The notes beneath the pieces were generated by a model. The model was not told the origin of the DNA. It worked only from the letters and a program-made list of their open reading frames with translations, and did not search any database. DNA of 64,000 nt from Methylonatrum kenyense (lineage in GTDB: Bacteria; Pseudomonadota; Gammaproteobacteria; Nitrococcales; Aquisalimonadaceae): NCBI RefSeq assembly GCF_023195885.1, contig NZ_JALPKO010000003.1, forward strand, positions 310,001-374,000, written 5' to 3'. The position numbers and the translations under genes were made by a program. This document shows positions 60,273-63,779 of the stretch, piece after piece (position 1 is the first letter of the stretch; the number at the start of each line of letters is the position of its first letter).

Positions 60273-60695
60273 TCAGGCAATCTCAATAACACCAACCGAG
60301 ACATACGCAAGGCAAAACATTCCGGTCACGAACGCAGCTATACCTAGAACACCAAGCCCCCAGATCAAGGTGTCGGCAATGCCTGGTGTCCCCGAGGTGT
60401 CTAGATCTTCGCCATCAAGCTTTTTGCGCCATCGTTCGGCGAAGGAGTAATCGCGCCAGATGATGGTGAGAAGGCAGAGCACAAGGGAGATTATTGCTAG
60501 AAACAAGGCAACCCATCCCCATTTGAGCACATCCAGAAGTACAGAGGTGAGTGTTGGCGCTGTTTGGCTGGTGAATATGCCGATGGAGACGGTCAATGCC
60601 CCACCGCTCAAAACAAAGACGGCTTTTGCTAACGAGTCCGCCCGCTTACGAGTGTCCTCGGTTAGCGCATTGAATAGTTCAAGATCATCTGCCAT
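60273..60695 (-). CDS. Small three-helix membrane protein downstream of HerA
   Basis: A 140-residue protein beginning MADDLELFNALTEDTRKRADSLAKAV with a charged helix, then three hydrophobic segments (VFVLSGGALTVSIGIF, WGWVALFLAIISLVLCLLTIIW, TLIWGLGVLGIAAFVTGMFCLAYV) and a basic loop (RDYSFAERWRKKLDG) between the last two. No recognised family. It follows the HerA gene on the same strand at 139 bases. Upstream starts in the open frame (to 60917) are possible, but ATG 60695 fits best. Confidence 0.6.
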   Translation of the reverse strand: MADDLELFNALTEDTRKRADSLAKAVFVLSGGALTVSIGIFTSQTAPTLTSVLLDVLKWGWVALFLAIISLVLCLLTIIWRDYSFAERWRKKLDGEDLDTSGTPGIADTLIWGLGVLGIAAFVTGMFCLAYVSVGVIEIA

Positions 60696-60834
60696 GAGTT
60701 TGTTTACGCTCTTCCTTGCCTCACACCCAGCTTCGGTGGCGTCGCACATCCTGTCGCTGCATGCTGCAGTTATGTCGGGCCATTTCCATCGTTGGCTTCG
60801 CCAATCATCTCCCAGGCCCAAGATATTGCCGCAC

Positions 60835-62601
60835 TCACCTCTCCACTTTTGACGGCTTGACTGCCCAATGCTCCTGATATTTTGGGCCATCTGATCTTGG
60901 CTTGACGCCGGGCGCACGGATCTGGATCGTCAGCGGGATCGGGAAATCCGTACCGATGATTGCCGCCTCGCCGGGACGGAGATTTGGCAGGAATGCCGAA
61001 GCCGCCCGGTCGATCTCACCGCAGGCTCGCTCCACCACTTCACGGTCACGGTCGTTGGTAAGCCGGTGCACGATCAGAGTGCCCATCTGGCTCAGAACGC
61101 CTTCGGTGACATCACGCGGCCGTTGGCTGGCCAGACAAATATTCAGGCCGTACTTGCGGCCCTCCTTGGCTATCACTTCGAAGGCATCGAGCCTAGAGGC
61201 ATAGTCTTCAGCGCCGATCTGACGACCGAGAAAATTATGTGCTTCGTCCACCAGAAGCACCGTTGGGCGATTCTGAAACGATCCAGCGCGAGCCTTGGTC
61301 AACAGGTGCCGACCGATGACATTGGCGATTATTTCACGGGCGTGAAATTCATAGGCAATCCCGCTGAGGCAGATTCTGAGTAGGTTGTGGCCCCCATCGA
61401 TGAAGTCATCGATCTGTTGGGTTAACGCAATTCCCGTGTCCGGCTGGAACACGCACTTGAATGCGGGGGATGCCAAGACCCCGTTGATGCGTGCCACGAG
61501 TGACAGGCAGTAGGAAAAATTGCCGTCCTCACGTCCCCATTTTGTGGGATCCTTCTCCCCTTGCCTGGCACCAAAACCTTCCGGATAGACGCACTCCTGC
61601 TCTATCTGTTTGACCAGTAATCTCACATCGAAGGGCTGGCGCGGATCGTCCAGCCTGCTCGACACATCTTGCTCCATCTCCGCCGCTTCAATATCCGTCT
61701 TCGATTTATTGATCTTCTCGATGACGCCATCCGTTGCAAGACCGGGTCTCAGGTTGGCAAGCCGCAGACTTCTAATCGCCGCTCGGAGTTTCGGCCCCTG
61801 AACTTTGCCTGCTGGCTCGAACAGCGCAGTGAAGTCCGACTCCAGAAAAGATGTCGGTGGCAACGAGCAAGAAGTGGATGCAGCCGCCTTCTCTATGGGG
61901 TGGCCCAGATGGCAGTGGACGACATTATCTCCTGCGAAGTTCCGGTACTCACCGGTGGCGTCGATCAAAATCAGCTTCGCTTGGGATCGCAGGCATTCCT
62001 CGATGATTCGCGCTGTCGTCCAGCTTTTACCGCCTCCGGTTGCGCCGAGAATCGCGCAATGACGGCCGAACAGCCGCTCAGGCTTTACGGTGACAGCACT
62101 CCTCTGCGCCACATCGATCGCGCCGAGGTTCAGGACCACGGGCTCCCTGTCATCAGCATCGTGTTCCATCAGGCGGGGCAGCAGTGCGAGAAACCGATGC
62201 GGGGCAGCGTAGATCCGATCTCCGAGGCGCGGGTAGGCGTCGACGCCTGCGGTGACTTGCAGGTCATCCATGGCAACACAGCCTAGTAACTGAATCTGGC
62301 CCAGTGCGTCCAGATCACTATTTCCTGAGAAGTCGCGCCGGATATTGCGCCGCTCTGGTTCCCGCAGGCGGACTTCAGCGATGCGCCCCAGCAGAAGGCT
62401 TTGTTGGCCCTCGATAAGAACAAACTCGCTGACTTCGCCCAGGCCGTAGCGGGCACCGGCAAAATGAGAACCACTCGGATTGCCAGCTACGCTGAGATTG
62501 ACGCCCACTCTTTGGGCAGTAATCGAGGAGGCCACCCCAAGAAATAGTTCAGGCCGCAGCAATCCGTTTGGGAAGGTCTCATCGATGCACAACTTGCTCA
62601 C
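60835..62601 (-). CDS. HerA-type hexameric ATPase of a SIR2-HerA defence operon
   Basis: A 588-residue cytoplasmic ATPase of the DUF87/HerA (FtsK-HerA) family. An N-terminal HAS-barrel-like region (about 1-140) precedes Walker A GATGGGKS (186-193) and Walker B VLLVDEAHNF (about 455). SQRPRDVTEGVLSQMGTLIVHRL is the sensor/arginine-finger region, and ending residues AIIGTDFPIPLTIQI are typical. Its start GTG 62601 overlaps the SIR2 stop. Paired with SIR2, it matches the known NAD-depleting anti-phage module; the reasoning is by family, not by test. Confidence 0.93.
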   Translation of the reverse strand: MSKLCIDETFPNGLLRPELFLGVASSITAQRVGVNLSVAGNPSGSHFAGARYGLGEVSEFVLIEGQQSLLLGRIAEVRLREPERRNIRRDFSGNSDLDALGQIQLLGCVAMDDLQVTAGVDAYPRLGDRIYAAPHRFLALLPRLMEHDADDREPVVLNLGAIDVAQRSAVTVKPERLFGRHCAILGATGGGKSWTTARIIEECLRSQAKLILIDATGEYRNFAGDNVVHCHLGHPIEKAAASTSCSLPPTSFLESDFTALFEPAGKVQGPKLRAAIRSLRLANLRPGLATDGVIEKINKSKTDIEAAEMEQDVSSRLDDPRQPFDVRLLVKQIEQECVYPEGFGARQGEKDPTKWGREDGNFSYCLSLVARINGVLASPAFKCVFQPDTGIALTQQIDDFIDGGHNLLRICLSGIAYEFHAREIIANVIGRHLLTKARAGSFQNRPTVLLVDEAHNFLGRQIGAEDYASRLDAFEVIAKEGRKYGLNICLASQRPRDVTEGVLSQMGTLIVHRLTNDRDREVVERACGEIDRAASAFLPNLRPGEAAIIGTDFPIPLTIQIRAPGVKPRSDGPKYQEHWAVKPSKVER

Positions 62602-63779
62602 AGCTCTCTCGTCACGCCCTTGATGGCTTTCATTAGGGCGTCCGCCGGCGTCAACGATTTCAGGTCGGGGATCATCTCAGCGAATTCACAAAACGATGCG
62701 GTGATAAACCACACATCTTCACCACGATGACTCAGTCGGAACAGCCTTTTCCAGTGCGCATTATCTCCCGTTTCATTCGTGCGAGCCCCGGGATCTACCA
62801 CGATTAAACGCAAGTGGGGGTTCGACTCTACGGCACCTAGGAGTGGCTCGGCCAGATGATCGTCATTGAAGCCAAAGCCCACGGTCAGTAAACATGTATT
62901 CGGTTCGCGCACGGCGGCAAGATACTGAGCCATTGATTCGAGATGGGGTTGGGCGAAGCTCTGCTGGTACTTGCCCCGTGCGGGGTAGATCAGACAAGCC
63001 TCGTCAGGGGTCGGCTTGTCTTTCTCGCAAATAGTGCCGTCTTCGCCCTTCGCCCAGTTGACTGATCCGTGGAGCTTGTAGAGCAGGAACACGCCTTCCA
63101 GGTACTGGCCAAGGTCGTCGCCGCTTCGCGGTCGCCGGATGATGTCGTAGCCGAAGAACCTAGGGTCATAATGGCGAGGAGCCGTAAACGAGAATCCGTC
63201 GAGAGCTACGCCGCCAAGCGCGGCGGCAGCCCGTTCGTAACAGAGGTCATAGTTGGTCGTGAACACCTTCAGGCGTTGATCACGAACGCGCCGACGGGAG
63301 AGGCGATGCAGAAAAGTCTTGTGATCGTGTAGGTCCCCGGTGTCCAGGAATGTCGAGCATTCGTTTAGGATCACTTCCTTGCTGAAGTTCAAGAAGTTGC
63401 TGACGTGTTCATCCTGGTTCACCAGCAAGAAGGCCTCGACCCTGGATAGGAAGGCCTCAATATCCTTGTTCGCAAGGTCATGATTGACCTTCTCCGCGGT
63501 CCGCTTGGCGTCATCCGTCGGTTCTTCACCAACAGCGCGCTCCCAAAGGTCAAGCATGGATGGCCCGCCGGCTGATCGCGAACATCCGGATCCAGCGAGA
63601 ATCACAAGATGCTGCATTTGTAAGGACGCAAGCAGCGAATTCTTCAGCTCGTCCTTGGCTTTCCGCACCTCCTCTGGCTGATGACTCTCGTCGTGTGAGT
63701 TCCCAGCACCCAGCGCCTGCCAATCGTCCGAACCAGGTGTCCGTAAGGCAGGAACGGCTCTCTGCTCGTGCCTGATCAT
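62598..63779 (-). CDS. SIR2-like NAD+ hydrolase of a SIR2-HerA defence operon
   Basis: A 393-residue SIR2-domain protein. The NAD-binding LAGSGCSRSAGG (61-72), FTTNYDLCYERA, the catalytic KLHGSVNW histidine region and VGFGFNDDH give the sirtuin-like set used by defence NADases. Acidic-basic linker sequences lie before the domain. It is first in the operon, with AAGGAGG about 11 bases before ATG 63779. Known SIR2-HerA systems destroy NAD+ on phage infection; this protein fits by domain and order. Confidence 0.93.
   Translation of the reverse strand: MIRHEQRAVPALRTPGSDDWQALGAGNSHDESHQPEEVRKAKDELKNSLLASLQMQHLVILAGSGCSRSAGGPSMLDLWERAVGEEPTDDAKRTAEKVNHDLANKDIEAFLSRVEAFLLVNQDEHVSNFLNFSKEVILNECSTFLDTGDLHDHKTFLHRLSRRRVRDQRLKVFTTNYDLCYERAAAALGGVALDGFSFTAPRHYDPRFFGYDIIRRPRSGDDLGQYLEGVFLLYKLHGSVNWAKGEDGTICEKDKPTPDEACLIYPARGKYQQSFAQPHLESMAQYLAAVREPNTCLLTVGFGFNDDHLAEPLLGAVESNPHLRLIVVDPGARTNETGDNAHWKRLFRLSHRGEDVWFITASFCEFAEMIPDLKSLTPADALMKAIKGVTREL

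Follow-up and report, generated by a model that had tools for sequence, protein, structure and literature searches.

The SIR2-HerA (Nezha) anti-phage system is encoded by two genes, and its published complex contains 12 SIR2 and 6 HerA subunits and hydrolyses NAD+ (PMC11559045). Two genes are enough for defence elsewhere: in Vibrio cholerae, a native host of the system, resistance was kept when a whole island was deleted and SIR2 and herA were spared (PMC11559045). Here we analysed a stretch of 64,000 nucleotides (contig positions 310001-374000, hereafter the window) from a 2.95-Mb genome in 29 contigs. In this window the first-pass annotation had read a SIR2-HerA operon followed by a possible membrane third component, here called TM140. 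The identification of SIR2-HerA stood; the proposal of a third component was not supported. We consider it very probable that the pair is an ordinary one and that TM140 is not a subunit of it, but a neighbour from a promiscuous family in a mobile defence island. The features in the window are as follows:

62598..63779, minus strand: SIR2, NADase subunit, 393 aa (PADLOC PDLC04075, solved SIR2 chains, invariant motifs)
60835..62601, minus strand: HerA, ATPase subunit, 588 aa (PADLOC PDLC04103, Walker motifs, solved complexes)
60696..60834, minus strand: gap between HerA and TM140, 139 bases (site searches)
60273..60695, minus strand: TM140, 140-aa three-helix membrane protein with an ATG start (TM segments, unnamed mobile family)

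The three ORFs were found at the places claimed for them on the minus strand, and the ORF reading of the window gives HerA a GTG start and a 4-bp overlap with the stop of SIR2. PADLOC, Pfam, solved structures and invariant motifs agree on the pair with its NADase motifs. SIR2 matches PDLC04075 at E 1.6e-81 and HerA matches PDLC04103 at E 2.4e-153, and SIR2_2 in SIR2 and DUF87/HerA_C in HerA exceed the Pfam cut-offs. In alignments with three relatives, TTNYD (N176) and KLHGS (H237) of SIR2 are invariant, so the catalytic Asn and His are both present, and the Walker A motif GATGGGKS and DEAH of HerA are invariant as well. SIR2 matches the solved SIR2 chains 8yhx, 8j4u and 8w9l, and HerA matches the HerA chains of solved complexes, for example 8j4u and 8woc; the entry 8j4u holds both of the matched proteins. 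The layout, an NADase SIR2 followed by an overlapping ATPase HerA, is that of the Nezha operon. SIR2 and HerA are clearly a complete though divergent SIR2-HerA (Nezha) pair, which differs from the described system in that the strict NCBIfam cut-offs are not reached, although the PADLOC subfamily match is strong, and in the unrelated membrane genes on its flanks. Type I restriction-modification genes lie beside or around many of the closest SIR2-HerA relatives (L019, L020, L021, L022, L038, L041 and L058).

By homology and published work, we infer that the pair works as the published complex does. SIR2 and HerA would form the ordinary two-protein anti-phage complex, in which HerA, assembled with SIR2, would turn on the NAD+ hydrolase of SIR2 upon phage infection, and the depletion of NAD+ would cause the phage to fail. 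No novelty is claimed for SIR2-HerA itself.

On the upstream side of SIR2, just outside the window, lie a second membrane gene and then other defence and transposition genes:

L002:8014-8592, minus strand: three-helix membrane protein of 192 aa, on the strand of SIR2 and 233 bp upstream of it
L002:8850-14890 (contig 374849-380889), divergent from SIR2-HerA and the 192-aa gene: complete Shango operon, SngA, SngB and SngC (PADLOC)
L002:15227-18962 and L014:28-1623, beyond Shango: homologues of TnsA, TnsB, TnsC and TniQ

Shango is a known anti-phage system (PMC10250203), and its full three-gene set is recognised here at E 3e-73 (SngA), 9e-171 (SngB) and 8e-248 (SngC). It lies beside SIR2-HerA and is divergently transcribed, but it is a separate system, outside the window and the reported coordinates. 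In L092 and L093 (Ruegeria and Pelagimonas), a distant SIR2-HerA pair is closely followed by Shango genes that lie on the other strand, so the two systems are neighbours in at least one other element, which is apparently shared. Defence genes are frequent cargo of Tn7-like transposons (PMC8649781). The TniQ match is weak (E 0.00021, below the Pfam cut-off), and no Tn7-like ends were found when inverted repeats and repeated TnsB-like sites were sought. The best reading of these surroundings is that the SIR2-HerA pair sits within a mobile defence island. Further along the contig, at 389300-396800, pieces of a denitrification-type gene cluster (NnrS, Crp/Fnr-like and others) that lies within window positions 14600-47900 recur in inverted orientation with 78-88% identity.

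TM140 is the three-helix protein that had been described from its sequence: three hydrophobic segments are present (residues 22-40, 61-79 and 119-137), and AlphaFold2, run with no alignment, predicts with low confidence (pLDDT 63.6) that residues 2-41, 49-93 and 105-139 each form a long helix. A conserved LSGGAL..S motif is located in the first helix, and homologues at 52% and 38% identity show that TM140 is a real gene. TM140 is above the cut-off in no family of Pfam, PADLOC or NCBIfam; the best library matches are weak (PADLOC PycTM, E 0.012; NCBIfam SLATT_4, E 0.11), and no significant match to a PycTM or SLATT profile was obtained. It shares with SLATT and PycTM proteins a small size, a helix at the N-terminus, several TM helices and a location near defence genes, but no cyclase or nucleotidyltransferase partner is present among the genes examined around the window pair. 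A search of solved structures with the TM140-family profile gave insignificant matches only.

No close relatives of TM140 were found in genome contigs, plasmids or phages, while more distant members of the family were recovered by profile searches from a few genomes. The closest relative found, in G503, is 52% identical over 133 residues. On either side of it stands a copy of a repeat whose end is GGCGTTA. This repeat, which we take to be of the attC (VCR) type, recurs along the locus, and successive copies are separated by one gene. Read from the repeats and the gene spacing, the locus is laid out like a chromosomal integron cassette array. Another member in G503 and one in G720 lie inside or adjoining cassette-type arrays, and in G620 the family member is preceded by a transposase that, from its sequence, is presumably IS30-like. 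One further member, found with a four-member subset of the alignment, comes from a viral contig, where its neighbours are terminase-like genes. The window copy itself is not a present-day integron cassette, because neither an attC-like core nor an RYYYAAC/GTTRRRY pair is found near 60273-60834.

Defence genes occur in the vicinity of several members of the family, which makes a defence role plausible. The member in G005 follows HsdR, that in G149 is near a ParE-like ORF and a type IIG enzyme, that in G352 is near a resolvase-like gene, an E1-like protein and a DrmC-like protein, and that in G387 is near a PDC-S69 candidate. Such neighbours, together with the cassette-type arrays and the viral contig, favour the possibility that TM140 by itself makes up a one-gene element for defence or stress, from a family that accumulates in defence islands and cassette arrays and changes its partners. 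This is compatible with our best explanation, which denies only that TM140 is a subunit of SIR2-HerA. However, TM140 has no significant PADLOC or Pfam family, some members lie among ordinary genes (G250, for example), and the neighbours that were scanned are hand-picked, with no matched control. We therefore regard a one-gene element as possible but rather unlikely.

The first-pass annotation had suggested that TM140 may add a membrane effector or sensor to the SIR2-HerA system, and had proposed to look for it beside other pairs. On this rival reading, TM140 would be a third component specific to this locus, co-transcribed with the pair and serving as a membrane tether or sensor, or as a membrane-damaging effector. 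What ties it to SIR2 and HerA is only the shared strand and the 139-bp gap, in which no promoter-like or terminator-like site was found, so that read-through from HerA and co-transcription are possible. Restriction enzymes that adjoin some family members, and the second small membrane protein on the flank of the pair, also speak for such a component. On the other side, the GC3 of TM140 (0.546) is unlike that of HerA (0.642) and SIR2 (0.655) and is closer to that of a neighbouring AraC gene (0.541).

The search beside other pairs gave the outcome that the first-pass annotation had named as refuting its proposal. HerA was scanned in one genome per species over 84,980 species, and the best 80 loci by similarity to the window HerA were taken with up to 8 kb per side. 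SIR2 adjoins HerA in 54 of these 80 loci, and more than 600 bp are available downstream in 52 of the 54. Neither TM140 nor a relative is present within the fetched flank of any of the 52 pairs, and no ORF of the 80 listed HerA loci gives a significant match to TM140 by blastp, to a 3-member or a 13-member profile by hmmsearch --max, or to TM140 by phmmer at full sensitivity. A count of 0 of 52 places the rate of TM140 below about 6% at 95%, although rare lineages with a third gene could escape a list that is capped at 80 and chosen by similarity. The closest listed pair, L019 (HerA 83% and SIR2 75% identical), has no TM140-type gene; there, SIR2 is overlapped by four bases by the gene before it, which carries N6_Mtase and type I specificity domains. 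Two possible membrane ORFs behind HerA were set aside: one at L033 (183 aa) looks spurious, and one at L031 (89 aa, two TM) is unrelated, with no SIR2 detected at that locus.

Seen from the side of TM140, the result is the same: 12 members of the family were examined at other loci, and none of them adjoins SIR2-HerA. Class samples of 369 genomes contain SIR2 relatives in 6 other genomes and TM140-profile matches in 7 other genomes, and the two never share a genome except that of the window. Given these absences, and the sufficiency of two genes elsewhere, it is quite improbable that TM140 is a third component of the system. Still more doubtful is the idea that the pair and the two same-strand three-helix proteins, of 192 aa upstream and 140 aa downstream, make up a lineage-specific, membrane-linked variant of SIR2-HerA. 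The two membrane proteins are unrelated to each other. The 192-aa one belongs to no family, and neither the other 330 genomes of a class sample nor viral contigs gave a match to it.

The favoured reading remains that of an ordinary SIR2-HerA pair with a neighbour. TM140 belongs to a small and promiscuous family of membrane proteins with three helices, and would have ended up 139 bases downstream of HerA within the mobile defence island. Its likeliest status is that of a passenger or an independent element, and its likeliest role that of an independent membrane accessory, which may itself function in defence. The locus shows how a mobile passenger gene can pass for a plausible “third component”. 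Moreover, a separate defence screen may be worthwhile for this unnamed family, whose members occur in integron cassettes, in a viral contig and next to restriction systems.
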